A stretch of DNA of 64,000 nt. It comes from Phycisphaerales bacterium (GTDB taxonomy: Bacteria > Planctomycetota > Phycisphaerae > Phycisphaerales > UBA1924). Shown one piece after another: positions 5,849 through 63,401 of this stretch. The stretch is taken from NCBI GenBank assembly GCA_029260515.1, contig JAJDDC010000096.1, positions 1-64,000 of the forward strand. Reading direction: 5' to 3'. The notes under the pieces were generated by a model. The model was given only the letters and a program-made list of their open reading frames with translations, was not told where the DNA came from and did no database searches. Each line of letters starts with the position of its first letter. The stretch's first letter is position 1. A program made the translations under genes and the position numbers.

Positions 5849-5963
5849 GGGCTCTCTCCGGGCGGGGCGTGATCGGTCGGATCGCGCCGGGGCCTCCGGG
5901 CTTAGTTTATCGCGTGGCGGCGTGGATACCAGGGTGGAATGCGGGCCTGCGGGGTCAAAACGA

Positions 5964-5989
5964 CAGGACGCCCCGCGTGGGGGCGTCCT
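5964..5989 (-). terminator. Rho-independent terminator of rpmE
   Basis: A 10-bp GC-rich stem (AGGACGCCCC at 5965-5974 with GGGGCGTCCT at 5980-5989) and a 5-nt loop lie about 40 bp past the rpmE stop. On the minus strand a short T-rich stretch (GTTTTG) follows. Confidence 0.6.
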
Positions 5990-6030
5990 ATAGGTGGTCG
6001 GTTGGGGGGGGGCCGATTGGCGGCGGCGGG

Positions 6031-6258
6031 TTACTTCTTCTTCTTGCCCTTGAAGTAGTCGCCGGCGAACTTGCGTTGGAACTTCTCGACGCGGCCCGCG
6101 GCGTCCACGAAGGTCTGCTTGCCGGTGAAGAAGGGGTGCGAGCCGGACCAGACGTCCACGTGCAGCTCGGGGACGGTGGCGCCGCAGGTCATGACGACCT
6201 CGCCGTTGTAGAAGACGCGGCAGGAGGGGTAGTACGTGGGGTGGGTCTGGGACTTCAT
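6031..6258 (-). CDS. rpmE: 50S ribosomal protein L31, lacking zinc ligands
   Basis: The 75-residue product has the L31 hallmarks MKxxTHPxY at the start, [23 protein letters not shown] in the middle and a lysine-rich tail, and matches the family's usual length. L31 sits at the subunit interface near the central protuberance. The zinc-binding CxxC and CSxCHPF motifs of the zinc form are missing: only isolated Cys13 and Cys25 remain, and the CSxC position reads WSGS. It is therefore a zinc-independent (C-minus) form. It is a single gene with its own terminator, transcribed away from the sigma-factor gene. Confidence 0.95.
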
Positions 6259-6556
6259 GGCGATCGCTCCGGCTTGCTCGGGGAGGATCGTAGGCGGCCC
6301 TGGGGGCGTGAATCCAACGCGTCGCGGGGTCCCCCAGGGCGTGGGGGGGCGGGTGCTGGGCCCTGGACCGAGGCACGATGGCAGAGGGGGCGTCGGGGGT
6401 GTGGCGGCGGCCGACTGGCGCGGGGTGAGGGCCTATCCGGAGCGGTCTGGCGTTCTCGCGGCGAGGGTGGATGTGAATCATGATGGGCGCCCGGCGGTAG
6501 GATCGGATCGAGGGCGTGCGAGCCGTGCGATCGGGCGCGGCGTGGAGTTGGCGTCG

Positions 6557-7123
6557 ATGGCTCAGAGCGAGTCGCAAGACCTGACGCGGGTGATCGAGCG
6601 GTGGCAGGGCGGTGACGAGGAGGCGGTCCGTCAGGTGATGTCGCTGGCATACTCGGAGCTGCACGATCTGGCGCGGCGGTACCTCGGGGGCGAGCGTTCG
6701 GGGCACACGCTGCAGCCGACGGCGTTGGTGCACGAGGTGTACCTGCGGCTCGTCGGCGAGCGGATGCCCGAGGTGTCGTCGCGGGCGCAGTTCCTCGGGA
6801 TCGCGGCGCGCCTGATGCGGCAGATCCTGGTGAACCACGCGGTGGCTCGGAAGACGGACAAGCGCGGGGCGGGGTGGTCGCGCGTGCCGGTGGACCGCGC
6901 GGTGGAGGCGATGGAACGCGGGCGGGTCGATATTGTGGAGCTGGATCAGGCGCTGCGTGAGTTGGCGCAGCGGGACCCGCTGCATGCGCGTGTCGTGGAG
7001 CTGCGGTACTTCGGGGGGCTGACAATCGAGGAGACGGCTGAGGTGACGGGCGTATCGGCTCGGAAGGTGGTCGCCTGCTGGACGTTCGCTCGGGCGTGGC
7101 TCTTGCGGGAGATGCGGGCGTGA
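6557..7123 (+). CDS. ECF RNA polymerase sigma factor (planctomycete Sig-70_X6/TIGR02999-like)
   Basis: This 188-residue protein has an ECF sigma-2 region at about 10-75 containing GHTLQPTALVHEVYLRL, the signature of the ECF group common in Planctomycetes and Acidobacteria. The sigma-2 end follows (FLGIAARLMRQILVNHA), then a sigma-4 helix-turn-helix at about 140-185 (LRYFGGLTIEETAEVTG). It would direct core polymerase to a special promoter set. The start ATG 6557 gives the usual short N-terminus. Its stop overlaps the start of the Ser/Thr kinase gene by 4 bp (GTGA), the arrangement expected where a kinase rather than a classical anti-sigma factor controls the sigma factor; no anti-sigma gene is nearby. 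Confidence 0.92.
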   Translation: MAQSESQDLTRVIERWQGGDEEAVRQVMSLAYSELHDLARRYLGGERSGHTLQPTALVHEVYLRLVGERMPEVSSRAQFLGIAARLMRQILVNHAVARKTDKRGAGWSRVPVDRAVEAMERGRVDIVELDQALRELAQRDPLHARVVELRYFGGLTIEETAEVTGVSARKVVACWTFARAWLLREMRA

Positions 7124-31793: not shown

Positions 31794-32286
31794 GTCTCTC
31801 ACCTCGACCTGATGCAGGCTTATGTAGGAGCCGCTCTCAGAGACTCTCTTGGTGGGCACTGTGGGGTGCGTGCCCTAGCTTGTCTCTTTGAACTCGGCGG
31901 GGTCTCTCTCTTCCCCCCGTCGATACCGCTCCAGTTCGTTCTCTCTCTTGCTCGATCTCGATCCCCACAGATCTTGGATTCCGGACCCAGCCTCCCATGG
32001 CCGAGGGGCGGTGTCAATACCCTGATCCGGGACTTTGCCACCGAAACGGTGATTTCTTTTTGCGTTTCAATACGGATTATGTACGGGTGTCGAGATAGCT
32101 CATTCAGTTATCAGCACTTAGGCGAGGCGGCACCGGATGTTTGGATTTTGTGCGATCCGTGTGAATCTGTGCGATGTGGTCTCGATCTCGCGCCTCGGGA
32201 GTATTCGGATGCGTCGGATAGTGATAGCATCGGGCTTGCAGGGATAACAGGCTGCAGGGGTGTTCCTCCTGGGCTTGGGAGTAGAG
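31794..32286. other. Divergent intergenic region with AT-rich segment
   Basis: This 493-bp gap lies between the PEP-CTERM-like gene and the subtilase gene. The left part contains TCTCTC runs belonging to the minus-strand leader. The stretch 32040-32200 is clearly richer in A and T than the surroundings and probably holds both promoters. I see no gene in it. Confidence 0.55.
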
Positions 32287-33927
32287 ATGAGCGCGGCTCG
32301 TTTCGCGATAACGGTTGTGGTGTCGGCGGTCGCTGTAAGCGTGCCGGGGGCGCCAATCTATGCCGAGCTCGCTGCTCCCCCCTCTGTCGTGGGTGAGTTC
32401 TCCGGGGTTGGCGATCGGTTCGGCGGGTACAGCACGTCACGCCTGATCGTCAAGGTCCGTGAGGGGATCTCGTTGTCGGTCGTGGATGGTGTCATGCGCG
32501 TCGAGGGCGATGCGGGACATGTCCGATTCGCGTCGCGGGTCGGCGGCGCGGAGACATCCGGCGTTCTCGTAGCTCGTCCGGTGTTCAACATCGGGGTGCT
32601 CGCGCGCCCGGCGCTGGCTGAGCGTATCGGGCTCGATCGGTACTACGTGCTCGAGACCGCGGCCGGTGTGGATGTCGTCGGGCTCGCGGGGGGCTTGGCG
32701 GCGAACGGCGCGGTTTTTGAACGTGTGGACGCCGACGCGGTCGGCGGGCTGCAGGTGGACGGGACATTGAACGGCGGCGCCCCCTGGCCCAACGATCCGT
32801 CGTTCCCGGATCAGTGGGGCTTGCACAACACGGGTCAGATCACGGCGTGCACGTCCCCGGGCCTGCCCGGCGCGGATATCAGCGCGGTCGGCGCGTGGGG
32901 GATCGCGTTCGGATCTTCGCTCGTCACGGTCGCCGTGCTCGACGGGGGCGTGAACGAGCACGCGGACCTCGTAGGGCGCCTGGTCCGTGGGCGGAACTTC
33001 GCGGACGGCGATCCCGATGCCACGGGCCACATGAACAACAACCACGGGACGTACGTCGCGGGGATCGCCGCGGCGATCCAGAACAACGGGATCGCGATCG
33101 CGGGCGTGAGCCCGAACGCGCGGATCATGCCCGTGCGCGTGTTCAACGACTGGGGGATCGGGTTCGAGGCCGAGGTGAGCAGCGGTCTGGTGTGGGCGGC
33201 GGACAACGGCGCGGACATCATCAACATGAGCCTCGGCTTCGGCCCGAGCGCATCGACCGGGCTGCTGCACGACGCGGTGATCTACGCGTACGAGAGCGGG
33301 GCCCTGCTGGTGGCGTCGTCCGGGAACGTGATGACCCAGGACGTGCTGTACCCGGCGGCGTTCGACGAGGTGATCGCGGTCGGGGCGACGAACAACACCG
33401 ACACGATCTGGATGAACTCGACGACCGGACCCGAGCTGTCGCTCGTGGCGCCCGGGGTCGGGGTCGTGTCGCTGATGGACACGCCCGGGGCGCCGGATAC
33501 GACGGTGTGTGACCACGGGACTTCGGCCTCGGCGCCGTTCGTCTCGGGGTCGGCGGCGTTGGTCATGTCGCGGTACCCGGAGTTGTCGGGCGACGTGGTG
33601 CGGACGATCCTGGAGGTCACCGCCGACGACCTGGGCGATCCTGGCGTGGACGATGTCTACGGCTGGGGGCGGGTGAACGCGGAGAGGGCGCTGGCGTACC
33701 TGGCGAACTCGGGGGGCGTGCCGATTCGGCGGCCGGTGTGCCTGGCGGATCTCAACGGCGACGGGCTGATCGACATCAACGACCTGCTCTTGTACCTGCA
33801 GATGTTCGCGGACGGGGCTCCCGGCGCGGATCTGGCGCCGCCCTACGGCGTCATCGACTTCGCGGACATCATGGCGTACCTGGCCAGGTTCGCGAGCGGC
33901 TGCCTGAACGGGCCGGGCGGGGCCTGA
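32287..33927 (+). CDS. Secreted subtilisin-like serine protease (S8) with dockerin-like tail
   Basis: This 546-residue protein has a signal peptide (about 1-26), a propeptide-like segment to about 160, and then the peptidase S8 domain. The catalytic triad is complete: Asp219 (VAVLDGGV), His253 (NNHGTYVAGIA) and Ser413 (HGTSASAPFVSG), with the oxyanion Asn in SSGN. After the protease domain come two dockerin-like repeats (DLNGDGLIDINDLLLYL and VIDFADIMAYL) with Cys before ADLN and a final GCLNG. It is expected to act outside the cytoplasm, held on the surface through the tail. ATG 32287 is preferred over an earlier GTG since it gives the signal peptide and has GGAG upstream. Confidence 0.93.
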   Translation: MSAARFAITVVVSAVAVSVPGAPIYAELAAPPSVVGEFSGVGDRFGGYSTSRLIVKVREGISLSVVDGVMRVEGDAGHVRFASRVGGAETSGVLVARPVFNIGVLARPALAERIGLDRYYVLETAAGVDVVGLAGGLAANGAVFERVDADAVGGLQVDGTLNGGAPWPNDPSFPDQWGLHNTGQITACTSPGLPGADISAVGAWGIAFGSSLVTVAVLDGGVNEHADLVGRLVRGRNFADGDPDATGHMNNNHGTYVAGIAAAIQNNGIAIAGVSPNARIMPVRVFNDWGIGFEAEVSSGLVWAADNGADIINMSLGFGPSASTGLLHDAVIYAYESGALLVASSGNVMTQDVLYPAAFDEVIAVGATNNTDTIWMNSTTGPELSLVAPGVGVVSLMDTPGAPDTTVCDHGTSASAPFVSGSAALVMSRYPELSGDVVRTILEVTADDLGDPGVDDVYGWGRVNAERALAYLANSGGVPIRRPVCLADLNGDGLIDINDLLLYLQMFADGAPGADLAPPYGVIDFADIMAYLARFASGCLNGPGGA

Positions 33928-36533: not shown

Positions 36534-37751
36534 TTACGGGCAGCCGGCGCCGAAGTCGATGAGGTACTGGAAGACATCGGAGAAGTCGAGGAGGCCGAAC
36601 GGGAGTGCGAGGTCTGCGGCGCACTGGCCTCCGCTGAACTCGTGGGCGCCGATGTCGAGCGGGCCGAGGCGGCGGATGCCCGGGTTGAATCCCAGGCCGT
36701 AGCCGAACCCGGTGTCGGGCGTTCGGGGGTCGTCGACGAAGCGGTTCTCGTTGAAGACGTCGGCGTCGCGGACAGACGAGACAAGCTCGGTGACGGGGTC
36801 GAACTCGAAGAGCACTTGAGCGGCGGCGGCGTCGATGGCGGGGGAGCCGGGGGCGAGGCGGAAGTCGTACCCGGCGGAGTCTCGGAACATTGGGTCGGTG
36901 TCGAGGTTGTCGGGGCCGACGGCGCCCGGGTAGATGCTCGCGAACGTGAACAGGTTGCCCGCGGCGAACGGCGTCCCGGTGAGGTTGTCCCAGATGATGG
37001 AGTTGGCAACCTCGATGGGCTCGGTTGGGCCTCCCGCGATCAGCGAGAGGGACGGCGTGTTGGATCCGTTGCGGGCGAGGGTGCAGTTGGCCATCGTGAG
37101 CGCGGTCCCGTTCTGGACCAGGATCACCTCGCCGTCGATGTCCTGCAGCGCGCTGTTGTCTGAGAACTCGCAGTTCGTCAGCGTCACGCTGGTCGCGCCG
37201 GGGGCCCAGATCGCGGAGTGGGCGCTGGCGAAGTTCTGGAGGAACAGGGAGCTGTCGATCGTGACCTGTGAGCCGCCGAGGGCGAACAGGGCCCCGCCCA
37301 GCCCGTTCTGGGCGGCGCACCCGATGAAGATGCATCCTTCGAAGTTGACCGTGGAGTTGTCGATGAGGACGCCGCCGCCGTCGGTGTCGGTGACGAGGCC
37401 GTTGCGGAACATCATGCCGATGATGCGGACGGGGGCGGCGTTGACGATGCTCATGCAGCGTCCGGCGGAGCCGGGGTCGATGATGCTCGTCCCGGTCCCC
37501 CCGTCGCCCTGGCCGATGATGGTGAGGGGTTTGTCGATGGTGACGTCGATCTCGTTGAGGGTGACGTTGTAGACGCGGATGTTGTCGCCCGGGCTGGCGT
37601 CGTCGATGGCGCCCTGGAGCGTGGTGTACTCGGCGTCGGTGTTGAGGTTCTCGACGGGCAATCCCCTCGCGGGCGAGTCGCCATCGGCGAAGGCCGGTGA
37701 CGAGAGCACGAGGGCGGCGAGCAGGGCGAAGATCTTGGAACACAAACGCAT
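36534..37751 (-). CDS. Secreted parallel beta-helix protein with dockerin-like tail
   Basis: This 405-residue protein has a signal peptide ending SSPAFAD (about residue 22). A right-handed beta-helix region follows, with repeated short strands around Asn and Ile ladders (YTTLQGAIDDASPGDNIRVYN at the start, ILVQNGTALTMANCTL later), like pectate-lyase-fold or Pmp-like proteins. A C-terminal dockerin-like unit (CAADLALPFGLLDFSDVFQYL) ends GAGCP, with the two bracketing cysteines. It probably sits on the cell surface. No catalytic residues can be assigned. ATG 37751 is preferred to the upstream ATG because it begins the signal peptide. Confidence 0.85.
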   Translation of the reverse strand: MRLCSKIFALLAALVLSSPAFADGDSPARGLPVENLNTDAEYTTLQGAIDDASPGDNIRVYNVTLNEIDVTIDKPLTIIGQGDGGTGTSIIDPGSAGRCMSIVNAAPVRIIGMMFRNGLVTDTDGGGVLIDNSTVNFEGCIFIGCAAQNGLGGALFALGGSQVTIDSSLFLQNFASAHSAIWAPGATSVTLTNCEFSDNSALQDIDGEVILVQNGTALTMANCTLARNGSNTPSLSLIAGGPTEPIEVANSIIWDNLTGTPFAAGNLFTFASIYPGAVGPDNLDTDPMFRDSAGYDFRLAPGSPAIDAAAAQVLFEFDPVTELVSSVRDADVFNENRFVDDPRTPDTGFGYGLGFNPGIRRLGPLDIGAHEFSGGQCAADLALPFGLLDFSDVFQYLIDFGAGCP

Positions 37752-37784
37752 GCGATTCCCCTTCGGATATTGACGTCTCAAACG

Positions 37785-37817
37785 AAAAAGGCGGCGGCCC
37801 CGGTCGAGGCCGCCGCC
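37785..37817 (-). terminator. Rho-independent terminator of the S74 operon
   Basis: A 10-bp GC-only stem (GGCGGCGGCC at 37790-37799, GGCCGCCGCC at 37808-37817) has an 8-nt loop, followed on the minus strand by five T residues. It lies 25 bp past the last gene of the operon. Confidence 0.85.
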
Positions 37818-37841: not shown

Positions 37842-38219
37842 TCAGCGTGCGGCCTCGTGACGGCGCGTGAACTCCATGAAATCGGCCGCATCGATGACGC
37901 CGAAGGGTTCGGCGATGTCGGCGCCCGGGTCGGCTTTCTCCATCTTGCCAACGAAGGCGGCGGTGTCGGCCGCGTCGATGACGCCGAAGGGGGCGGCCAG
38001 GTCCGGCACGCGGGGCGCCGGGGCGGGCGTAAGGACGGCGGTGAGTGTGAAGCCGTCGGCGCTGAGTGTGGTCTGCGCCGGCGTGGTCACGGGCCGGAGC
38101 TCCAGGAGGAAGCCGGCGCCCTCGAGGCGCGTGGTGTTCTGGAGCGGGGCAGAGCCGGCGGCGATGATCGTTGCGCCGGCGAGCGCCGCGATGCACGCGG
38201 TCTTCGTGAGGGTTCTCAT
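37842..38219 (-). CDS. Small secreted dockerin-like protein, last gene of the S74 operon
   Basis: This 125-residue protein has a signal peptide (about 1-22), a short beta-rich middle (about 25-70), and two dockerin-like repeats at the C-terminus (DLAAPFGVIDAADTAAFV, DIAEPFGVIDAADFMEFT). Unlike others in the window, the repeats read DAAD rather than DFSD, and neither bracketing Cys is present. Its ATG overlaps the stop of the S74 paralogue before it by 4 bp. As the final gene it would be made with the four S74 proteins and might cap, tether or partner them. Confidence 0.8.
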   Translation of the reverse strand: MRTLTKTACIAALAGATIIAAGSAPLQNTTRLEGAGFLLELRPVTTPAQTTLSADGFTLTAVLTPAPAPRVPDLAAPFGVIDAADTAAFVGKMEKADPGADIAEPFGVIDAADFMEFTRRHEAAR

Positions 38220-39937
38220 TGTGCCTTCTCCTTGTTGCGGCGTGAGGCGAGGAAGCCGGCGCCGACGCCGGCGATGATGAGCACGGGCCAGGCGAACGCG
38301 CCGGCCTTGAGGCCCCGGCCAGCAGACATACTGTCGAGGCGGGACTCGAGGTCGGCGATGCGTGAGGACTGCTCGTCGTTCTCGGATTCAAGATCCGTCA
38401 CGAGTGTGCGCAGCTCCTGGACGGCGGCGGCGGAGTAGATGGTCAGGGGGTGGATGTCCACCTGGAGGATCTCGGAGCCGTCGGGCAGGTACTCGCCAGA
38501 GCCCTGGACGTGCTCGGGAAAGACTCGGGCGAACTCCTGGGCGATGACGTTGAGGTAGCGGCGGTCGTCGATGCCCTTGTGGGTTGCCTTGTACTCGTCG
38601 GTGTAGTCAAAGCTGACCAGTCGCACGCGGTCGAGAGTGTCGAGTGCGTCCGTAACGGTCTCAACCTCGGTCTTGATGCGGCGGTCGGAGTTGGCGAGCC
38701 ATGAGCCGGAGGTGGTCTTGGAGGCGTTGCCGCCGACCTCGAGCATGTTGGACAGGGGAGCGCGGCCAATACCGGTCGCTCCCTCGACGCGGAGTCCATC
38801 CGTGGGCGGTGTTAAGAAAACGCCGATGGAGAGGCCGCCGTTGTCTGGCATGTAGAGCTTGGTGGCGCCGTCAATCTGGATGCGGACGGCTGGGTCGAAG
38901 CCCGAAGATATTTCGCCCCGGATAAGGGCATCGTTGCTTGTCGTGCCGATCGAGACGCCGTTCTGCGAATACACGCCGTTGCCGCCCACGAACTGGCCCG
39001 CCCAGCCGTCTGCGGATGTGACCTGGCCGAGAACGGCGGTCGCGGTCCCTGTCGCGGCATTGGCGAGGCCGCGGACGCCTGTGCCAGTGGTGGAGTCGGA
39101 GAGCCCGGTGACGCCGAAGTTGGCGCCGGTGGCGCTGTTGGCCTGTCCGAAGACGCCGGAGCCGTCGGGGGAGTAGGAGATGCCGAAGACGCCGAAGTTG
39201 ACGCCGCCCGCGCCCAGCGCCGCGCCGAAGACGCCGTAGCCGCCGACGGAGGAGTTGATCCCGCGGATTGCCTGGTCGAACGTGGAGGTGACGACGGTGA
39301 GGGGCCGGATGGGGCTGGTGGTGCCGATGGCGACGTTGCCGGCGGTGTAGTAGATGTTGGAGCCGGTGAGCTGCCAGAAGGGGCCGGCGGGGCCGAAGGT
39401 GTGGTCGTCGTCGGGGTTGCCGAAGCCGCCCGCGCCGCCGGGCCCGGTGTCGGGATCAAAGCCTGCGCCCGCGGGGTCGAGCAGCGGGTCGCGGGGCGAG
39501 CGTCCGGAGATGGAGAGGCTGGCGTTGGAGCGGGCCTCGGCGGCGAGGGCCGCGGCGCGGGCTTGCGCGTCTGTGATATTGGTCACGCCCGGCTCGACGC
39601 GCTGTCGGGGCGAGAGTGTGACGTAGTCGCCGTCGCCCGAGGGGGCGCGGACGCTGACCTCGAGCCAGCCGGAGGCGCTCGCGCCGAAGTCGAGCGTGGC
39701 CTTGAAGGCGCCGTCGGTCAGCGCGTGGGCGGGCAGCTCGATGGTGTCGCCGAGCTGGGCGCCGGCCTCGGCGGAATCAAAGAGGCGGAAGCGGAGATCG
39801 GCGGAGCTGTCCACGGGCGCGTCGAGGTACGAGAGCTGGCCCTCGTAGACGAGGGGGGTCGGCTCGGCGAGCGCGGGGGCGGCGAGGGCCGTGCCCGCGA
39901 CGGCGAGGATCATGATGATGTGTCTTGCGTGATTCAT
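38216..39937 (-). CDS. Secreted S74-domain (tail-spike-like) protein D with C-terminal anchor
   Basis: This 573-residue protein has a signal peptide (ending ALAEP, about 25) and a conserved N-terminal beta domain (YEGQLSYLDAPVDSSADLRFRLFDS, about 30-150). A GVFG/GVRG glycine-repeat stem (about 200-320) and a variable segment follow. The C-terminal peptidase S74 chaperone domain starts at about 416, with Ser417-Asp and Lys422 in NSDRRIKTEVETV, the dyad used for self-cleavage in phage tail spikes. A coiled coil follows, then a transmembrane helix with basic end (ASRRNKEKAQ). It likely trimerises. It is fourth in the operon, with ATGA overlaps at both ends. Confidence 0.88.
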   Translation of the reverse strand: MNHARHIIMILAVAGTALAAPALAEPTPLVYEGQLSYLDAPVDSSADLRFRLFDSAEAGAQLGDTIELPAHALTDGAFKATLDFGASASGWLEVSVRAPSGDGDYVTLSPRQRVEPGVTNITDAQARAAALAAEARSNASLSISGRSPRDPLLDPAGAGFDPDTGPGGAGGFGNPDDDHTFGPAGPFWQLTGSNIYYTAGNVAIGTTSPIRPLTVVTSTFDQAIRGINSSVGGYGVFGAALGAGGVNFGVFGISYSPDGSGVFGQANSATGANFGVTGLSDSTTGTGVRGLANAATGTATAVLGQVTSADGWAGQFVGGNGVYSQNGVSIGTTSNDALIRGEISSGFDPAVRIQIDGATKLYMPDNGGLSIGVFLTPPTDGLRVEGATGIGRAPLSNMLEVGGNASKTTSGSWLANSDRRIKTEVETVTDALDTLDRVRLVSFDYTDEYKATHKGIDDRRYLNVIAQEFARVFPEHVQGSGEYLPDGSEILQVDIHPLTIYSAAAVQELRTLVTDLESENDEQSSRIADLESRLDSMSAGRGLKAGAFAWPVLIIAGVGAGFLASRRNKEKAQ

Positions 39938-41679
39938 GGTGTCTCCAGGATGAGGCTCTCAAGGAGTTCGAGTCGCGACTCGAGATCGGCGATGCGTGAG
40001 GACTGCTCGTCGTTCTCGGATTCAAGATCCGTGACGAGTGTGCGCAGCTCCTGGACCGCGGCGGCGGAGTAGATGGTCAGGGGGTGGATGTCCACCTGGA
40101 GGATCTCGGAGCCGTCGGGCAGGTACTCGCCCGAGCCCTTGACGTGCTCGGGGAAGACCTGCGCGAACTCCTGGGCGATGACGTTGAGGTAGCGCCGCTC
40201 GTCGATGCCGTCGTGGTCGGCCTTGTAGTCGTCCGTATATTCGAAGCTGACGAGTCGCACGCGGTCAAGCGTATCGAGCGCGTCGGTCACGGTCTCGACA
40301 TCGGTCTTGATGCGGGCGTCGGAGTTGGCGAGCCACGAGCCGGAGGCGGTCTTGGAGGCGTTGCCGTTGACCTCGAGCTTGTTGGTGGTCGCCATGCGTC
40401 CGATGCCCGTATTCCCGTTTGTTTGAATCCTGATGCCAATTCCGCTAAAGGTGCTATTCGGGCCGACATTCTCGTACGAGATGTAGAACTCCGATGTACC
40501 CATGCCGCTCGCCTGGCGGCCGATCGACCAATGATCGACATACGTCCCGTTGGTCAGGAGTTCCTTGAGATTGATGACCGAGCCGATAATCTGGAGGTCA
40601 TCACTGAGGAGCTCGAGGGCCGCGTCGGAGCCCTCGATGATGAGACTCGCCTCGTCGGCGGTCCGCAGGTCACCGCTGTCCGCGTTGATGCCTCCGGCGC
40701 CGCGGATGTAAGCGCCCTCCCCGCCATCGAAGTAGCCCGCCCAGCCTGCCGTGCCGGAGTTGATGCCGCGGACGGCGACAGGAGTACCCGACACGGCGGT
40801 GGCTAAACCTCGGACACCCGTGCCGGTTGTGGAGTCGGACTGCCCGGTGACGCCGAAAGTGGCGCCCGTTCCGCTGTTGGCCTGGCCGAAGACGCCGGAG
40901 CCGTCGGGCGAGTAGGAGATGCCGAAGACGCCGAAGTTGACGCCGCCGGCGCCGAGCGCCGCGCCGAAGACGCCGTAGCCGCCGATGGAGGAGTTGATCC
41001 CGCGGATTGCCTGGTCGAACGTGGAGGTGACGACGGTGAGGGGCCTGATGGCGCTGGTGGTGCCGATGGAGACGTTGCCGCCGGTGTAGTAGATGTTGGA
41101 GCCGGTGAGTTGCCAGAAGGGGCCGGCGGGGCCGAAGGTGTGGTCGTCGTCGGGGTTGGCGAAGCCGCCCGCGCCGCCCGCGGACGGGTTGGGATCGAGG
41201 CCCGCGCCTTGGGGGTCGAGCAGCGGGTCGCGTGGCGCGCGGTTGGAGATGGAAAGACTCGCGTTGGAGCGTGCCTCGGCGGCGAGTGCGGCGGCGCGGG
41301 CCTGCGCATCTGTGATGCTGGTCGCGCCGGGCTCGACGCGCTGGCGCGGCGAGAGGGTGACGTAGTCGCCGTCGCCCGAGGGGGCGCGGACGCTGACCTC
41401 GAGCCAGCCGGAGGCGTTGGCGCCGAAGTCGAGGGTGGCCTTGAAGGCGCCGTCGGTGAGTGCGGTCGCGGGCAGCTCGATGGTGTCGCCGAGCTGGGCG
41501 CCGGCTTCGGCGGAATCAAAGAGGCGGAAGCGGAGATCGGCGGAGCTGTCCACGGGCGCGTCGAGGTACGAGAGCTGGCCCTCGTAGACGAGGGGCGCTG
41601 GCTCGGCGAGCGCGGGGGTGGCCGCGAGGGCGGCGCCCGCGGTGGCGAGGATCGCGAGGATCTTGGTTCGACGATTCAT
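39934..41679 (-). CDS. Secreted S74-domain (tail-spike-like) protein C without anchor
   Basis: This 581-residue protein is nearly identical to the neighbouring paralogue in its signal peptide, N-terminal beta domain, glycine-repeat stem (GVFGAALGAGG and others) and S74 domain (NSDARIKTDVETV; Ser and Lys kept). Its variable segment differs (DLRTADEASLIIEGSDAALELL and a following stretch of about 100 residues). The coiled coil ends LESRLELLESLILETP, so the transmembrane helix found in the other three is absent. It could be released, or held through mixed trimers. ATG 41679 overlaps the preceding stop, and its own stop overlaps the next ATG. Confidence 0.88.
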   Translation of the reverse strand: MNRRTKILAILATAGAALAATPALAEPAPLVYEGQLSYLDAPVDSSADLRFRLFDSAEAGAQLGDTIELPATALTDGAFKATLDFGANASGWLEVSVRAPSGDGDYVTLSPRQRVEPGATSITDAQARAAALAAEARSNASLSISNRAPRDPLLDPQGAGLDPNPSAGGAGGFANPDDDHTFGPAGPFWQLTGSNIYYTGGNVSIGTTSAIRPLTVVTSTFDQAIRGINSSIGGYGVFGAALGAGGVNFGVFGISYSPDGSGVFGQANSGTGATFGVTGQSDSTTGTGVRGLATAVSGTPVAVRGINSGTAGWAGYFDGGEGAYIRGAGGINADSGDLRTADEASLIIEGSDAALELLSDDLQIIGSVINLKELLTNGTYVDHWSIGRQASGMGTSEFYISYENVGPNSTFSGIGIRIQTNGNTGIGRMATTNKLEVNGNASKTASGSWLANSDARIKTDVETVTDALDTLDRVRLVSFEYTDDYKADHDGIDERRYLNVIAQEFAQVFPEHVKGSGEYLPDGSEILQVDIHPLTIYSAAAVQELRTLVTDLESENDEQSSRIADLESRLELLESLILETP

Positions 41680-43727
41680 CGGGTGGTCTCCTTGCGTGTG
41701 CGTGTGACGGCGAGCAGGCCGAGGCCCGCGGCCGCGAGCAGCGGAAGGGCGAGCGACGCGCTTGTCGGGCGGCGGCTGGACTTGATGGACTCGATGCTCT
41801 CGCGGAGCTGGTCGAGCTCGGCGGTGATGGACTCGTCGCGGCTCTCGAGGGCGGCGATCCGCGCGTCCTTGGCGTCCACGACGCCGCGCAGCTCCTGGAC
41901 CGCGGCGGCGGCGTAGATCGTCAGGGGGTAGGTATCGACCTGGAGGATCTCGCTGCCGTCGGGCAGCAGCTCGCCCGAGCCATGGACGTGCTCGGGGAAG
42001 ACCTCTGCGAACTCCTGGGCGATGACGTTGAGGTAGCGGCGCTCGGCGACGGACGGGTGGGCGGCCTTGTAGGCGTCGGTGTACTCGAAGCTCACCAGTC
42101 GGACCTTGTCGAGCGTGTCGAGCGCGTCGGTGACCGTCTGGATCTGGGTCTTGATGCGCCGGTCGGAGTTTGCGGCCCAGTCGCCGGCGGCGGTCTTGGA
42201 GGCGGTACCCTCGACCTCGAAGTCGTTGGCGGTGGCCTCGCGTCCGACGCCGACCCAGCCGTCCTCGCGGTTCATGTGCATGACGAGCGCGCGGGCGCCG
42301 CCGTCGAGGCGCCAGAAGCGGAGGCCGCCGTCCATGCCGCCCTCGGCGACGACGTCCCAGCCGAAGGTGGAGTCGAGCGTGCGGATCTGGAGGCCGGCCT
42401 CGGATCCGTCGAAGACCTGCTTCTTCAGCAGGATGAGCGTGTCGTCGGCGCCGGCGGAGAAACTGCCGAGCGAGGCGTCGGGGACGCCGGCGCCGAGCGT
42501 GCCGAAGATGCTGAGATTGTTTGTGAAGAGGCCCTGGCCGCCGGAGAAGTGGCCGCCCCAGCCGCTGCCAGCCGCGATGCCGCGCACACCGGCGGACGCT
42601 GCGCCACCGTTGGTATTTTGTCCCCTGACGCCGTCGCCGCTCGGTCCGGAAGACGTGCCCAGCACGCCGATGCCGGCGTCTGCGACGCCGTTGGCGGTCG
42701 AGTCTCCCCACACGCCGAAGCCGTTGGTGGAATCTGTGACCCCGTTTACGCCCGTCGCGTTTCCGAAGGCTGCGGAGTTGTGCCCACGGACACCAAAGCC
42801 GCTGCTGGCGACGCTCGTACCACTGACGCCGATCGGCGTGCCCGTGCCGCTGGTTGCGAGGCCGCGGACGCCGATTCCTGAGGAGGAATCGGACTGGCCG
42901 GTGACGCCGAAGGTGGAGCCGGTGGCGGAGTTTGCTTGGCCGAAGACGCCGGAGCCGTCGGGCGAGTAGGAGAGGCCGAAGACGCCGAAGTTGACACCGC
43001 CTGCGCCGAGGGCGGCGCCGAAGACGCCGTAGCCGCCGAGGGCGGAGTTGACGCCGCGGACCGCCTGCTGCGCCGAGGTCGTGCGGACCTCGAGGGGCAT
43101 CGAGGGGGTCATGGTGCCGATGCCGACGTTGCCGGCGGTGTAGTAGGTGTTGGCGCCCGAGGAGACCCAGAGGCCCTGCGGTCCGACGGTGTAGTCGTCG
43201 TCGGGGTTGCCGAACCCGCCTGCGCCGCCCGGGCCGGCGTTGGGGTCGAAGCCCGCGCCCGCGGGGTCGATCAGCGGGGAGCGTGATGTGTTGCGCGAGA
43301 GCGAGAGGCTGGCGTTGGAGCGGGCTTCCTCGGCGGCGAGAGCCGCGGCGCGGGCCTGCGCGTCGGCGATGCTCGCTACGCCCGGCTCGACGCGCTGGCG
43401 TGGGGTGAGCGTGACGTAGTCGCCGTCGCCGGCGGGGGCGCGGACGCTGACCTCGAGCCAGCCGGCGGCGCTTGCGCCGAAGTCGAGGGTGGCCTTGAAG
43501 GCGCCGTCGGCCAGCGCGTGCGCGGGCAGCTCGATGGTGTCGCCGAGCTGGGCGCCGGCTTCGGCGGAATCAAAGAGGCGGAAGCGCAGATCCGCGGAGC
43601 TGTCCACGGGCGCGTCGAGGTACGAGAGTGTTCCCTCGTAGACGACGGGCTCGGCGAGCGCGGGGGCGGCGCCGACCGCGGCGCCGGCGAGCGCGAAGAG
43701 TGCGATGCATCGGGTGCGGGCGTTCAT
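41676..43727 (-). CDS. Secreted S74-domain (tail-spike-like) protein B with C-terminal anchor
   Basis: At 683 residues this is the longest paralogue, with more copies of the glycine-rich repeat (GVRG, GVSG, GVWG, GVLG; about 215-420) making a longer presumed stem. It has a signal peptide, the conserved N-terminal beta domain, a variable segment (GGMDGGLRFWRLDGGARALV), an S74 domain with NSDRRIKTQIQTV, a coiled coil, and a C-terminal transmembrane helix (SLALPLLAAAGLGLLAVTR) with basic tail. Such length changes by repeat number fit a fibre-like shaft. It is second in the operon, with 4-bp overlaps on both sides. Confidence 0.88.
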   Translation of the reverse strand: MNARTRCIALFALAGAAVGAAPALAEPVVYEGTLSYLDAPVDSSADLRFRLFDSAEAGAQLGDTIELPAHALADGAFKATLDFGASAAGWLEVSVRAPAGDGDYVTLTPRQRVEPGVASIADAQARAAALAAEEARSNASLSLSRNTSRSPLIDPAGAGFDPNAGPGGAGGFGNPDDDYTVGPQGLWVSSGANTYYTAGNVGIGTMTPSMPLEVRTTSAQQAVRGVNSALGGYGVFGAALGAGGVNFGVFGLSYSPDGSGVFGQANSATGSTFGVTGQSDSSSGIGVRGLATSGTGTPIGVSGTSVASSGFGVRGHNSAAFGNATGVNGVTDSTNGFGVWGDSTANGVADAGIGVLGTSSGPSGDGVRGQNTNGGAASAGVRGIAAGSGWGGHFSGGQGLFTNNLSIFGTLGAGVPDASLGSFSAGADDTLILLKKQVFDGSEAGLQIRTLDSTFGWDVVAEGGMDGGLRFWRLDGGARALVMHMNREDGWVGVGREATANDFEVEGTASKTAAGDWAANSDRRIKTQIQTVTDALDTLDKVRLVSFEYTDAYKAAHPSVAERRYLNVIAQEFAEVFPEHVHGSGELLPDGSEILQVDTYPLTIYAAAAVQELRGVVDAKDARIAALESRDESITAELDQLRESIESIKSSRRPTSASLALPLLAAAGLGLLAVTRTRKETTR

Positions 43728-45733
43728 CGTGTCGTGTCCTTTCGGATTCTGGTGATGGCGAGGAAACCCAGGCCCGTGGCCGCGAGCAGCGGCAGGGCGA
43801 GCGCGGCGCTCGACGGGCGGCGGCTGGTCTGGAGCGATTCGATGCTGGCGCGCAGGTCGGCAAGCTCGGCGGCCATGGTCTCGTTGCGGCTCTGGACTTC
43901 CGCCAGATCACCGGCCTGCTCGGCGATGAGTTCGCCCTGAGCGTCCACGACGCCGCGGAGTTCCTGGACCGCGGCGGCGGCGTAGATGGTCAGGGGGTAG
44001 GTGTCCACCTGGAGGATCTCGGAGCCGTCGGGGAGCAGCTCGCCCGAGCCCTGGACGTGCTCGGGGAAGATCTGTGCGAACTCCTGGGCGATGACGTTGA
44101 GGTAGCGGTGGTCGGCGATGCTCTCGTGCGTTGCTTTGTAGGCGTCGGTGTACTCGAAGCTGACGAGTCGCACGCGATCGAGCGTGTCGAGCGCGTCGGT
44201 CACGGTCTCGACTTCGGTCTTGATGCGGCGGTCGGAGTTGGCGAGCCACGAGCCGGCGGCGGTCTTGGAGGCGTTGCCGCTGACTTCGAGCTTGTTGGTG
44301 ATCGGGACGTTGCCGACACCGAGGCTTCCGCTGACGAGGAGGCCATTGGCGGGGGCGCCGGTGAGGATCCCGATCGAGAGCCCGCCATTGGTCTGCGCCC
44401 AGAGCTTGGTGTTGCCATCGACCTGGAGGCGGAGGGGGTCGTTCGTCCCCCCTGCCGTCGTGTTGCAGCGGAACAGTGCGTCGTTGTCGACAGTCACATC
44501 GAGCGGCCCGGCGTCGAACGCGAGGTCGGACTCGACGCCTTGGCCGCCATCGAACTTGCCCGCCCATCCGGATCCTGCGGCTGTGCCCTGGACCGCGACC
44601 GATCCGACGGCGCCGGTAACGTTGAGCCCGTGGACACCCTGCCCGGTGGTGCTGAAGGACTGTCCGTAGACGCCGGCGCCCACGCCGCTCGCATTGGCTG
44701 CGAAACCGATCACGCCATTCCCCAGGTCCGTCTGGGTCAGTCCGAACACACCTTGGGCGCTTCCGGTGGTGGAGGTCGCCTCGCCGACGACGCCGACACC
44801 GCCGGAACTGGCGGACTGGCCGTAAACGCCGACCGCGGAGGTTCCCGTCGTGGCGGTCGCGAGGCCGCGGACGCCGACGCCCGAGGTGGAATCAGCCTGG
44901 CCGGTGACGCCGAAGGTGGATCCGGTGGCGGAGTTGGCCTGGCCGAAGACGCCCGAGCCGTCGGGCGAGTAGGAGAGGCCGAAGACGCCGAAGTTGACGC
45001 CGCCGGCGCCGAGGGCGGCGCCGAAGACGCCGTACCCGCCGAGGGACGAGTTGACACCGCGGACCGCCTGCTGCGCGGAGGTGGTCCGGACCTCGAGGGG
45101 CATGGAGGGGGTCATGGTGCCGATGCCGACGTTGCCGCCGGTGTAGTAGGTGTTGGCGCCCGAGGAGACCCAGAGGCCCTGGGGGCCGACGGTGTAGTCG
45201 TCGTCGGGGTTGCCGAAGCCGCCCAGTCCGCCCGGGTCGGCGTTGGGGTCGAAGCCGGCGCCCTGGGGATCGAGGAGCGGGTTGCGTGATGTGTTGCGCG
45301 AGAGCGAGAGGCTCGCGTTGGAGCGGGCTTCCTCGGCGGCGAGAGCCGCGGCGCGTGCCTGCTCGTCAGAGATGTTGGTCACGCCCGGCTCGATGCGCTG
45401 GCGGGGGGTGAGGGTGACGTAGTCGCCGTCGCCCGAGGGCGCACGGACGCTGACCTCGAGCCAGCCGGCGGCGCTTGCGCCGAAGTCGAGGGTGGCCTTG
45501 AAGGCGCCGTCGGCCAGCGTGTGCGCGGGCAGCTCGATCGTGTCGCCGATCTGGGCGCCGGCCTCTGCCGAATCAAAGAGTCGGAAGCGCAGATCCGCGG
45601 AGCTGTCCACGGGTGCGTCGAGGTACGAGAGTGTTCCCTCGTAGACCACGGGCTCTGCGAGCGCGGGGGTCCCGAACGTGACGGCGACGGCGAGACCACA
45701 GGCCGTGGCCAGGACAGAACTCCAGCATTGCAT
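43724..45733 (-). CDS. Secreted S74-domain (tail-spike-like) protein A with C-terminal anchor, first gene of operon
   Basis: This is a 669-residue paralogue with an N-terminus of its own (signal peptide of about 28 residues ending TPALAEP) and the shared beta domain. A long glycine-repeat stem follows (GVRG, GVYG, GVVG, GVFG, GVIG, GVYG, GVHG), then a variable segment, an S74 domain (NSDRRIKTEVETV), a coiled coil and a membrane helix (ALALPLLAATGLGFLAITR). ATG 45733 is chosen because the codons further upstream (to 45982) do not encode a signal sequence. Transcription probably starts in the 267-bp gap shared with the divergent oxidoreductase gene. Confidence 0.88.
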   Translation of the reverse strand: MQCWSSVLATACGLAVAVTFGTPALAEPVVYEGTLSYLDAPVDSSADLRFRLFDSAEAGAQIGDTIELPAHTLADGAFKATLDFGASAAGWLEVSVRAPSGDGDYVTLTPRQRIEPGVTNISDEQARAAALAAEEARSNASLSLSRNTSRNPLLDPQGAGFDPNADPGGLGGFGNPDDDYTVGPQGLWVSSGANTYYTGGNVGIGTMTPSMPLEVRTTSAQQAVRGVNSSLGGYGVFGAALGAGGVNFGVFGLSYSPDGSGVFGQANSATGSTFGVTGQADSTSGVGVRGLATATTGTSAVGVYGQSASSGGVGVVGEATSTTGSAQGVFGLTQTDLGNGVIGFAANASGVGAGVYGQSFSTTGQGVHGLNVTGAVGSVAVQGTAAGSGWAGKFDGGQGVESDLAFDAGPLDVTVDNDALFRCNTTAGGTNDPLRLQVDGNTKLWAQTNGGLSIGILTGAPANGLLVSGSLGVGNVPITNKLEVSGNASKTAAGSWLANSDRRIKTEVETVTDALDTLDRVRLVSFEYTDAYKATHESIADHRYLNVIAQEFAQIFPEHVQGSGELLPDGSEILQVDTYPLTIYAAAAVQELRGVVDAQGELIAEQAGDLAEVQSRNETMAAELADLRASIESLQTSRRPSSAALALPLLAATGLGFLAITRIRKDTTR

Positions 45734-53935: not shown

Positions 53936-54144
53936 AAGTATTTTGAGCGCCTCTGATCGTCGGGTCGGCCCGTCGTGTGCGGGACCGCTCCAGGTTCCCT
54001 CGCGGCCCTTTCCCGGCATGCGACCCCCGAATCCGGCGGTCACAAGCGATATGTTCGGGTTTCAGTACGCTCTGAAGCCCAGGTCACAGGCCAGCAATCG
54101 GCGTACTTGCCGCTTGGTGTGCCCTAGGGGATCCGGTACTATTT

Positions 54145-54155
54145 GGAACAGTTAC
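54145..54155. promoter_or_regulatory. LacI-type operator candidate C
   Basis: GGAACAGTTAC fits GNAACWGTTNC and lies 46 bp before ATG 54202, where a bound repressor would block initiation of the CBM-like gene. Confidence 0.65.
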
Positions 54156-54201
54156 ATCCCGGGCGGACGCTCGCCGCGGGCCAACCAGAGGGAGTATCGA
54201 G

Positions 54202-54924
54202 ATGAGAAACGTGACGACTGGATTCCGGGGTCTCCTGTTCGCGGGCGCGCTCGCGGCCGCGACGCCCGCCATGGCCCAGAACCTGGTTGCCAACGGCAGC
54301 TTCGAGGTTGATGGTCCGGGATTCACACTCTTCGAGAGCTGGGGTCAGTTCAACAACGTCTTCGAGGACGAGAGCGTCGAGGTCGTCGCGCAGGACGGCC
54401 TGCAGTCGGCGAAGATGTTCGGGCAGTTCGCTCCTGAGGCGCAGAGCGAGGCGGGGCTCTTTCAGGAGCTCAGCGTCTCACCCGGCGTCAAGTACGACCT
54501 GAAGGTGTACACGCACGTCCTCTCGAGTGACCCGATCCAGGCCCAAGACGATACAGGCAGCCCAGGAGGCAACACGTTCGGGCACCTGGCGCTCGCGATT
54601 CTTGATTTCAAGAACTCTAGCGGCGGTATCATTCAGAGCAACGAGGTCCAGGTGCATGACTCGAACACTTCGTCGCTCGATCAGTGGAACGAGTACAACC
54701 TCAGTGCGACCGCGCCCGCGGGCGCGGAGACAGTCCAGCTCACGCTGCTGCTGCTCCAGTGGGATCTGGCGACCGGCGCTATCTTCTGGGACAACGTGTC
54801 GTTGACTGTGGGCGACGCCGAGCCCCAGCCCTGCAACCCGGCCGACCTCGCCGAGCCCTTCGGCGTCCTCGACTTCTCAGACGTTATCGCCTTCCTGAGC
54901 GCGTTCGGCAGCGGCTGCCCGTAA
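54202..54924 (+). CDS. Secreted carbohydrate-binding-like protein with dockerin-like tail
   Basis: This 240-residue protein has a signal peptide (ending PAMAQ, about residue 25) and one jelly-roll domain of about 165 residues (NLVANGSFEVDGPGF at its start, IFWDNVSLTV at its end) with the layout of CBM4/9-type carbohydrate-binding modules. A C-terminal dockerin-like unit (ADLAEPFGVLDFSDVIAFL) ends GSGCP, with a Cys before ADL. No catalytic domain is present, so it should bind rather than cleave glucan on the surface. Operator C is just upstream and a strong terminator follows. Confidence 0.85.
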   Translation: MRNVTTGFRGLLFAGALAAATPAMAQNLVANGSFEVDGPGFTLFESWGQFNNVFEDESVEVVAQDGLQSAKMFGQFAPEAQSEAGLFQELSVSPGVKYDLKVYTHVLSSDPIQAQDDTGSPGGNTFGHLALAILDFKNSSGGIIQSNEVQVHDSNTSSLDQWNEYNLSATAPAGAETVQLTLLLLQWDLATGAIFWDNVSLTVGDAEPQPCNPADLAEPFGVLDFSDVIAFLSAFGSGCP

Positions 54925-60612: not shown

Positions 60613-61908
60613 ATGGAGTACATGATCATGAGTCTGCTGGCGATCCTGGCGGCTGTTGTGGCGGGATGCTCAGTGGTCACGATCGGGGGGGGGCAGGGCG
60701 GCGTCCACGTGAGCCTCGAACGTGACGGCGAGTCTTGGCGACTCCTGCGTGATGGTCAGGTGTACGAGATCCGAGGCGCCGGCGGCCGCTCGCAACTTGA
60801 CCGCCTCGCCGATGCAGGCGGCAACTCCATACGCACTTGGGACGGCGAGGGCATCGAAGACCTGTTGGATCAGGCGCATGCTCTCGGGCTAACGGTCACG
60901 GTCGGTATTTGGCTCGAGCACGAGCGTCACGGATACGACTACGACGATGCGACCGTCCGAGCGAACCAGTTGGCAAAGGTTTCTCGGATCGTGCGAGCTT
61001 ATCGCGATCACCCGGCCGTATTGCTCTGGGGTGTCGGCAACGAGGTCGAGCTCGGGGGGGATCTGGACAAGGCCCTCCGTGCAATCGAAGAAGCCGCTGC
61101 GGTTATAAAGGAACTAGACAGCGCTCATCCGACGATGGCCGTGATCGCCGAGATCGGTGATGACAAGGCCGTGCGAGTCCGCGAGCGTTGTCCGAGCATC
61201 GACCTCCTCGGGATCAACTCGTACGGTGGGATCGCGTCGGTGCCGCAGCGTCTCTCGGAGCAGGGATACGACGGCGCCTACATCGTCACAGAGTTCGGAC
61301 CGCGTGGTCACTGGGAAGGCCCGCTGACCCAGTGGGGAGCGCCGATCGAACCGACCAGCGCCGAGAAAGCGGCCATGTACGAGGCCCACTACCTTGCCGG
61401 CATCAAGGCAGAGATGCCGGGACGCTGCCTGGGCTCGTACGTGTTCCTCTGGGGGCAGAAGCAGGAGACCACCGCCACCTGGTTCGGGATGTTCCTCCCG
61501 AGCGGCGAATCGCTCCCGACCGTGGACGTCATGCACCGATTGTGGACGGGCAGCGAGCCCCCCAACGCGGCGCCGATGGTCAAGCGGATAGAGGCGGGGC
61601 TGATCCCGCACTATGTCAGGCCCGGCGACAGATTCGACGCGTCGGCCGAGGCGGAGGACCCGAACGGCGACGAGTTGAGGTACCAATGGAGCGTCGTCGC
61701 AGAATCTTCGGACCGGAAGACTGGCGGAGACAGCGAGCAAGCCCCGCCGGAGATCCCGGGACGTGTGCTCTCGTCGTCAGGGGCGACGGCTGTGATCGAG
61801 GCGCCCGCCGTACCCGGGGCATACCGCCTGTTTGTGTATGCGTTCGATGACAATGGTGGCGCCGGTACGGCGAATCTACCCTTTCTCGTCAAGGCGAACG
61901 ACGAGTAG
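60613..61908 (+). CDS. Lipoprotein glycoside hydrolase, GH2/GH5-like TIM barrel
   Basis: This 431-residue protein starts with a lipoprotein signal (AAVVAGC, Cys19), so it is probably anchored in a membrane. Residues about 40-310 form a (beta/alpha)8 barrel like the catalytic domain of GH2 and clan GH-A enzymes: RTWDGEGIEDLL, LWGVGNEVE with Glu144 as likely acid/base, and VTEFGPRGHWE with Glu227 as likely nucleophile. The C-terminal 100 residues are an Ig-like domain (ASAEAEDPNGDELRYQWSV). The exact GH family cannot be fixed; beside GH16 and GH1 it most likely acts on beta-1,3-glucan or its side chains. Operator E is 34 bp upstream; the GH16 gene follows after 26 bp. Confidence 0.82.
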   Translation: MEYMIMSLLAILAAVVAGCSVVTIGGGQGGVHVSLERDGESWRLLRDGQVYEIRGAGGRSQLDRLADAGGNSIRTWDGEGIEDLLDQAHALGLTVTVGIWLEHERHGYDYDDATVRANQLAKVSRIVRAYRDHPAVLLWGVGNEVELGGDLDKALRAIEEAAAVIKELDSAHPTMAVIAEIGDDKAVRVRERCPSIDLLGINSYGGIASVPQRLSEQGYDGAYIVTEFGPRGHWEGPLTQWGAPIEPTSAEKAAMYEAHYLAGIKAEMPGRCLGSYVFLWGQKQETTATWFGMFLPSGESLPTVDVMHRLWTGSEPPNAAPMVKRIEAGLIPHYVRPGDRFDASAEAEDPNGDELRYQWSVVAESSDRKTGGDSEQAPPEIPGRVLSSSGATAVIEAPAVPGAYRLFVYAFDDNGGAGTANLPFLVKANDE

Positions 61909-61934
61909 GATATGAGTTGGAAAGAACCGCTGGC

Positions 61935-63401
61935 ATGAAACACAAGCGAACAATCGTATTGATGCTCTGCGTCCTGTGTTTCTCGGCGGCAGCACAGGCG
62001 CAGCTCGAGTTGTACTGGTCCGACGAGTTCGATGGGGCCGTGCTTGATCTCGGGGTTTGGGAGCGCCAGGTCGGTGATGGTACGGCGTACGGCCTGCCGA
62101 GCGGTTGGGGCAACAACGAACAGCAGTATTACACGCAGCTCTCGCTCAACTCGTATGTACAGGACGGCCTTCTGCACATCGTCACATACGATGTCCCGTT
62201 CGCCGGCTTCGACTACTCATCCGCACGTATTCGCACCAAAGGCGCGTTCGAGTTCAGATACGGGAAAGTCGAGGCGCGGATCAAGCTCCCGAAGGGGGCC
62301 GGTATGTGGCCAGCGTTCTGGATGCTGCCGACGGACTCGCCGTACGGCGGCTGGGCCGCCAACGGCGAGATCGATGTGATCGAGGCTGTAAATCAGATGA
62401 CGACGATACACGGGACGATCCACTACGGGGGGTCGTTCCCCGACAACACAAGCGCCGGCGGGACCGTGGGCGGTGCTGATTACTCGCAGGATTTCCATGT
62501 GTACGCGGTCGAGTGGGAGCCGGACCAGATCCGCTGGTCTGTTGACGGTCAGCCGTACAGAACGCTCTCGAACTCGGCGTGGAACAGCGCCTCGGCGCCC
62601 TCGAACCCCCGTGCACCGTTCGATCAGCAGTTTCATCTGCTGCTGAACCTCGCAGTCGGCGGAAACTTCCCTGGAGATCCCAACGGTTCGACGGTCTTCC
62701 CCCAGGAGTTGCTGGTGGACTGGGTTCGCGTGCACAGGCTTGCGCAAACCCCGTTCGCCGGCGCCGCCAGCCCGATCCCGGGACGGATCGAGGCCGAAGA
62801 CTTCGACGAGGGCTGGCCCGGGGACGCGTACGTGGACTGCGACGCCGCGAACAACGGTGGCGCATACCGCCCCGATTCCGATGTTGATATCGAGCCTTGC
62901 TCCGAGGGCGGATTTGACGTTGGATGGATGTGCCCCGGCGAATGGCTGGAGTACACGGTCGATGTCGCCACCGCGGGGACGTACGACCTCCTGGCTCGTG
63001 TCGCCTCGGAGGCATCCGGCGGTAGCTTGCGATTTGAGTTCGACGGCGCCGACGTGAGTGGGGCGATCGGTGTTCCGGCGACCGGCGGCTGGCAGACCTG
63101 GACGACCGTCCAGACCCGGGTTGAACTCGACGCCGGCGAGCAGGTCGTCCGTCTAGTCAATCTCGGGGGTGGTGGCGCGGAGTTCAACATCAACTGGTTC
63201 GAACTGGAGGCGGTGAGTCTGTCGTGCGGAGCGGCGGACCTTGCCGATCCGCTCGGCGTGCTCGACTTCAGCGATGTCACCGCCTTCCTCGTCGGCTTCG
63301 CAACAGCAGACCCCGCCGCGGACCTGGCTCCGCCTTCGGGAATCTATGATTTCTCGGACGTGGTCGCGTTCTTGGTGGCGTTCGGAAACGGATGCCCCTG
63401 A
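61935..63401 (+). CDS. Secreted GH16 beta-1,3-glucanase with CBM6 and dockerin-like tail
   Basis: This 488-residue protein has a signal peptide (1-23, ending AQAQ) and a GH16 domain at about 24-280, with catalytic GEIDVIE at 144-150 (Glu145 nucleophile, Glu150 acid/base) and WPAFWMLP, as in laminarinases. A CBM6-like domain spans about 283-425 (IPGRIEAEDFDEGWPGD, GEWLEYTVDVATAGTYDLLARVAS). It ends with a two-repeat dockerin-like module (LDFSDVTAFL, YDFSDVVAFL) between SCGAADL and NGCP. It should cut beta-1,3-glucan (laminarin) outside the cell. It is the second gene of the glycosidase operon. ATG 61935 is chosen over an upstream TTG since it begins the signal peptide. Confidence 0.93.
   Translation: MKHKRTIVLMLCVLCFSAAAQAQLELYWSDEFDGAVLDLGVWERQVGDGTAYGLPSGWGNNEQQYYTQLSLNSYVQDGLLHIVTYDVPFAGFDYSSARIRTKGAFEFRYGKVEARIKLPKGAGMWPAFWMLPTDSPYGGWAANGEIDVIEAVNQMTTIHGTIHYGGSFPDNTSAGGTVGGADYSQDFHVYAVEWEPDQIRWSVDGQPYRTLSNSAWNSASAPSNPRAPFDQQFHLLLNLAVGGNFPGDPNGSTVFPQELLVDWVRVHRLAQTPFAGAASPIPGRIEAEDFDEGWPGDAYVDCDAANNGGAYRPDSDVDIEPCSEGGFDVGWMCPGEWLEYTVDVATAGTYDLLARVASEASGGSLRFEFDGADVSGAIGVPATGGWQTWTTVQTRVELDAGEQVVRLVNLGGGGAEFNINWFELEAVSLSCGAADLADPLGVLDFSDVTAFLVGFATADPAADLAPPSGIYDFSDVVAFLVAFGNGCP

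Follow-up and report, generated by a model that had tools for sequence, protein, structure and literature searches.

A probable cellular operon for secreted trimeric fibres with S74 chaperones in a Phycisphaerales bacterium

Five consecutive genes on the minus strand, here called g1 to g5, were studied in a window of 64,000 nucleotides, the whole stretch of Phycisphaerales DNA that was analysed. We conclude, with a probability of about 0.7, that they form an operon of the cell itself, encoding secreted trimeric fibres that resemble phage tailspikes and belong to the kind described in Bdellovibrio as mosaic adhesive trimers (MAT). A cellular fibre system with a phage-type chaperone had been proposed in a sequence-only reading of the same DNA, and the proposal is supported in part: S74 domains score above the curated cut-off, signal peptides are present and no phage genes were found among the tested neighbours.

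The first gene, g1 (43724..45733, 669 aa), encodes a signal peptide, a beta base domain, a linker, a GVxG stem, a tip and an S74 module, beyond which the C-terminal part consists of a coiled coil and then a membrane helix with basic tail. The same architecture, including the C-terminal membrane helix, is encoded by g2 (41676..43727, 683 aa) and g4 (38216..39937, 573 aa). The product of g3 (39934..41679, 581 aa) is also built like that of g1 but is devoid of the membrane helix and ends in ...LESLILETP. The last and smallest gene, g5 (37842..38219, 125 aa), encodes a signal peptide, a short beta region and a two-repeat domain similar to GC-type dockerins. It is followed on its 3' side by an intrinsic terminator on the same strand (37790..37817), formed by a 12-bp GC-rich stem, a 4-nt loop and TTTTT. 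Each of the four junctions (g1/g2, g2/g3, g3/g4, g4/g5) is an overlap of exactly 4 bp with the sequence ATGA. The previously noted arrangement of five tandem genes with four such overlaps and a strong terminator is thus borne out by the coordinates and by the terminator itself.

All five genes are coding, as third-position GC is 0.87-0.91 in g1-g5 and purine-rich stretches resembling ribosome-binding sites lie 5' of the starts of g2-g5. No promoter-like site was detected for the operon by a scan restricted to the sigma-70 type. In the tree of S74 modules, g1 pairs with g2 (support 0.78) and g3 with g4 (support 0.96). Since g1-g4 are tandem paralogues, the series of ATGA overlaps is less surprising than it appears, and the three junctions among them may be inherited from duplicated ends. 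The junction between g4 and g5 is independent, and close coupling of this type is seen again at loci of sister species.

All four large proteins match Peptidase_S74 (PF13884) with 46.7-52.8 bits (curated cut-off 22), in agreement with the S74 domain named in their earlier description. The modules are located on the minus strand at 43955..44329 in g1 (catalytic Ser500/Lys505), 41886..42260 in g2 (Ser521/Lys526), 40042..40416 in g3 (Ser453/Lys458) and 38408..38782 in g4 (Ser417/Lys422). The catalytic serine and lysine are retained, as had been claimed: the motif NSDxRIK (NSDRRIK or NSDARIK; SDxxxK) is kept in all four proteins, and its Ser, Asp and Lys show no variation in an alignment of 29. 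The structure predicted for the end of g4, a monomer model with stem and tip parts of low confidence, contains the chaperone at model residues of about 111-220 with mean pLDDT above 90, and its predicted fold is like those of the MYRF ICA domain and the endosialidase chaperone. When the S74 model was compared using Foldseek, the best match was MYRF ICA (7dc3, E 3.6e-8), and 3gw6 (about 1e-3) and 3gud (1.4e-3) were matched as well; the S74 sequence profile matched 7dc3 with E 5e-10. Several PHROG tail-fibre families were also matched by g1-g4. Matches to the profile of the module occur in 46 of 397 genomes of the class, in which fibres of the same architecture, combining S74 with this base, are common. 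In G495, a genome from another family, this subtype is present in at least 11 S74 modules that often lie side by side (loci L171-L178), a large fibre repertoire. At a further locus (L189; G632:C1, around 4864), an in-frame TAG splits an S74 module of this subtype just past the catalytic motif, and this copy is a possible pseudogene.

The remaining parts of the fibres differ markedly in conservation. The base domain, which spans residues 26-114 in g4 (39596..39862, minus strand) and has equivalents in g1-g3, is MAT-like and receives no name from Pfam, NCBIfam or PHROGs. Between paralogues, dN is 0.02-0.07 against dS of 0.18-0.33 in the base domain, and 0.09-0.20 against 0.26-0.40 in S74; both are under purifying selection. 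The stem is moderately constrained. Tips, located in g4 at about residues 300-385 (38783..39040, minus strand), differ from gene to gene, being 23-46% identical and mostly unalignable. As judged from sequence, constrained base and chaperone together with divergent tip is the pattern expected of fibres changing what they bind. The tip of g3 resembles that of a fibre from a second locus in the same genome (C48, described below) and the tip of g1 resembles that of g4, which suggests that tips may have been shuffled between fibres.

MAT fibres of Bdellovibrio bind prey and include an S74 subfamily, exemplified by Bd3182; their plan comprises a signal peptide, a beta domain of ~130 aa, a beta-helix and S74 with SDxxxK, and cleavage was shown for Bd3182 (PMC10769870). 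The signal peptide, conserved beta base domain, beta-helical stem, variable tip and C-terminal SDxxxK S74 are common to MAT and g1-g4, and both systems have several fibres per genome and other members in which a different end replaces S74. In hhalign comparison, the operon base matched the base of Bdellovibrionales S74 fibres, from which the MAT-side profile was made instead of strain HD100 sequences, with probability 86.5 and E 5e-7; controls with shuffled or unrelated sequences did not exceed 0.1. Direct search of two Bdellovibrionales/Bacteriovoracia genomes with the base-domain profile yielded nothing; only the profile-profile comparison matched. A candidate capping loop reads VGIGTMTPSMPL in g1 and g2 and is degenerate in g3 and g4; its spacing is that of MYRF VGINTDRPDEAL, but differs from the consensus printed for MAT, V-G-G/N-pi-X-X-P-X-X-X-L (PMC10769870). 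Several features set the operon apart from MAT, namely the tandem operon, the dockerin-like partner, the GVxG-rich stem, the membrane helix behind S74 in three of four fibres and the replacement of S74 in sister species. Moreover, g1-g4 measure 573-683 aa, compared to about 1,000 in MAT. In contrast to the Bdellovibrio bearers of MAT, relatives in the class are, to our knowledge, not predators. Given the match to MAT fibres, S74 fibres made by cells are not a new kind of system; for planctomycetes, however, a search of open-licence literature found no paper on them.

Phage endosialidase, the T5 L-shaped fibre and the GA-1 neck appendage belong to the virion and have neither a signal peptide nor a membrane helix. 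They have the same chaperone fold and the serine at the cut site (3gw6, 4uw8, 3gud). In the best structural match, the ICA of MYRF / MrfA (7dc3; PMC3742443, PMC8326128), the chaperone is followed by a membrane helix, as in g1, g2 and g4, and cutting frees an N-terminal trimer. However, MYRF binds DNA and resides in the ER of eukaryotes, whereas the N-terminal part is here predicted to be exported and fibrous. The parallel is one of layout and fold, not of function.

Gene order, domains, conserved catalytic residues, divergence of the tips and coupling of fibre and g5 are well supported. From these we infer trimer formation, self-cleavage, surface display, ligand binding, the freeing of fibres from a chaperone held in the membrane and the part played by g5, as follows. 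Each of the four fibre proteins would be exported via its signal peptide and would form a homotrimer under guidance of its C-terminal S74 chaperone. The chaperone would then cut with its own serine (NSDxRIK), leaving a mature fibre composed of conserved base, GVxG stem and newly exposed distinct tip. The base would position the fibre at the cell, with g5 probably serving all of the fibres as an accessory or as an anchor. Where a helix lies behind the chaperone (g1, g2 and g4), the precursor would stay in the membrane and come free only once it has trimerised correctly and been cut, as MYRF does, and g3 would be made soluble. The four tips would represent four binding specificities, probably serving recognition of surface glycans or attachment.

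Against the GC-type dockerin model NF041540, g5 scores 28.1 bits, which is under the curated cut-off of 29, and it is termed dockerin-like only; nothing beyond this likeness was obtained from Pfam, NCBIfam and PHROGs. A second locus in the same genome (contig C48; L031) consists of one S74 fibre with membrane helix, immediately followed by a g5 homologue that is 48% identical to g5 and overlaps its fibre gene by 14 bp. At three congeneric loci (G001:C71, G002:C165 and G002:C15), a fibre is likewise followed by a g5 homologue with short overlap, and the pairing is thus found at five loci in three species. Sister fibres at G001:C52 and G002:C400 are without g5. Since the pairing recurs at five loci, fibre plus g5 is taken to be a recurring unit and the four-fibre version an expansion in this species. 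Among 400 genomes of the order, near full-length g5 is limited to this genus, with partial and weaker matches elsewhere. A genome-wide search of contigs with the full alignment retrieved mostly distant stem matches, and plasmid search one distant match only.

At one of the sister loci (L089, on G002:C15), the g5 homologue is situated near tyrosine-recombinase-like gene fragments on either side of a gene for a protein kinase, and this stretch may be mobile or duplicated. GC-type dockerin-like repeats also end several unrelated secreted proteins in the window, encoded at 4106-7390 (minus strand), 32248-33924 (plus) and 36537-37781 (minus), as well as at 54076-54921 and 61851-63398 (both plus), and the genome has many of them.

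We found no match to S74 in the two congeneric sister genomes, one of which is only about 60% complete. Their fibres share base domain, stem and partner with the operon fibres; the C-terminal module differs. Against Peptidase_G2 (PF11962, cut-off 25), this module scores 24.6-25.1 bits, other copies reaching 14-22 bits, and it aligns with E 0.03 to the beginning of 3gqh, the C-terminal fragment from phi29. Comparison with G2 by hhalign gave probability 51 (shuffles at most 1.1) over about 50 residues. Eight homologues all keep the Asp, Ala and Glu of a D-[YF]-A-E motif, and it is this motif and the next ~50 residues that align with phi29 gp12 (3gqh), the second half of the gp12 domain having no match in sister ends. 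The residue preceding the motif Asp is Phe, Ile, Leu or Ala in sister ends, but Ser in phi29 and B103. When the structure of the sister end was modelled (mean pLDDT 56), the hits were a mixture of trimeric decoration folds from phages, among which 3gqh came twelfth; as support for likeness to G2 this model is weak. Taken at the level of sequence, the sister-species ends resemble an auto-chaperone module of the phi29 gp12 (Peptidase_G2) type.

The S74 modules of the operon are 74% identical to those of G495 and 54% to those of two viral contigs, but share only 34% with the other S74 proteins of the family they belong to. For the operon base domains, identity is 56% with the sisters and 42% with G495. 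Since S74 is nearest to G495 and the base is nearest to the sisters, the comparison indicates that S74 moved separately from the base, and the module was probably swapped into this fibre family. Support in the base-domain tree is weak (0.51), which leaves it uncertain in which direction and how long ago the swap took place. We considered whether the operon's own genome is free of any G2-like module, and this was ruled out by one related end on contig C63, that of the fibre L201 (G000:C63:181677-182114). The species thus has both types of end, in different fibre families, and the exchange concerns this fibre family and not the whole genome. A more far-reaching proposition joins both aspects: within one genus and one fibre-plus-partner system, two unrelated phage-type self-cleaving chaperones, S74 and the phi29 gp12/G2 type, would be swapped at the same position, and membrane-tethered S74 would make the release of fibres that differ in their tips depend on correct trimerisation and self-cutting, as a prokaryotic equivalent of the way MYRF is set free. 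We put this forward tentatively and consider it doubtful as a whole.

A hydrophobic helix with basic tail is encoded on the minus strand in g1 (near 43751-43804), g2 (near 41703-41753) and g4 (approximately 38249..38299), but not in g3. The view that the chaperone is held by a C-terminal helix thus applies to three proteins and fails for g3, whose tail is a soluble coiled coil with an end much like that of sister-species fibres (...LEELLLGETP). This ending looks like the older form rather than damage. Loss of the helix by frameshift was rejected, because no frame beyond the stop restores it and sister fibres end alike. Most related S74 fibres in the class also lack a membrane helix behind S74, so the membrane-held chaperone does not hold as a general rule, and without a helix in g3 the release gate cannot be common to all four. 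The helix in g1, g2, g4 and the second locus would also suit permanently membrane-anchored adhesins, in which S74 is a trimerisation clamp only and neither cuts nor releases; such a role is unlikely given the invariant Ser, Asp and Lys, cutting by the same motif in Bd3182 (PMC10769870) and the lack of a helix in g3 and most homologues. Alternatively, the tail, in which a short linker leads to a hydrophobic stretch and a basic end, recalls the layout of PEP-CTERM-like sorting signals, and the chaperone end would then be processed by an exosortase-like or rhomboid-like enzyme. Yet none of the NCBIfam C-terminal sorting-signal models matched g1, g2 or g4 at E 0.1 or better, nor is any invariant short motif seen ahead of the helix, and we regard this explanation as quite unlikely. 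Self-cutting by S74, with release where a helix is present, is the reading we prefer.

It might also be argued that the operon is a remnant or domesticated cluster of phage tail-fibre genes, kept by chance or decaying, since g1-g4 match S74 and several PHROG tail-fibre families and close S74 modules (51-53% identical) occur on two viral contigs with phage-like genes. The neighbourhood speaks for a cellular setting. Surrounding genes are ordinary cellular ones, encoding an oxidoreductase, a sodium symporter, a metallophosphatase with laminin-G-like domain, a beta-helix protein, a type II/IV secretion ATPase, a subtilase, a sugar ABC transporter ATPase, a GH1 glycosidase and a LacI regulator. 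Neither capsid, terminase, portal, integrase or lysis genes nor any virion or packaging family was found among the tested neighbours, in line with the earlier remark that phage genes are absent nearby. In addition, g1-g4 are all open frames that start with a signal peptide, purifying selection acts on their base and chaperone, the closest S74 modules (74% identical) are cellular, and fibres built in this way are common across the class. Phage remnant status is thus very unlikely, and prophage origin was rejected because no phage genes were found among the tested neighbours and the nearest S74 modules are cellular. Direct recent gain of S74 from a phage was rejected as well, the cellular cluster of another family being 74% identical as opposed to 51-53% for the viral contigs.

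If the operon does encode cellular fibres of the MAT kind, the MAT-type idea reaches from predatory Bdellovibrio to a planctomycete-like lineage with poorly known surface and attachment machinery. Base, tip, chaperone and candidate anchoring partner are separately testable in this compact operon. With the chaperone replaced in sister species and a helix placed behind it here, the idea that a cell releases fibres under quality control becomes open to direct test.

Finally, the two viral contigs mentioned above (L086, L087; from IMG/VR) carry phage-like genes along with tail-fibre ends 51-53% identical to the operon S74 module, a likeness that points to possible exchange between phages and cells.
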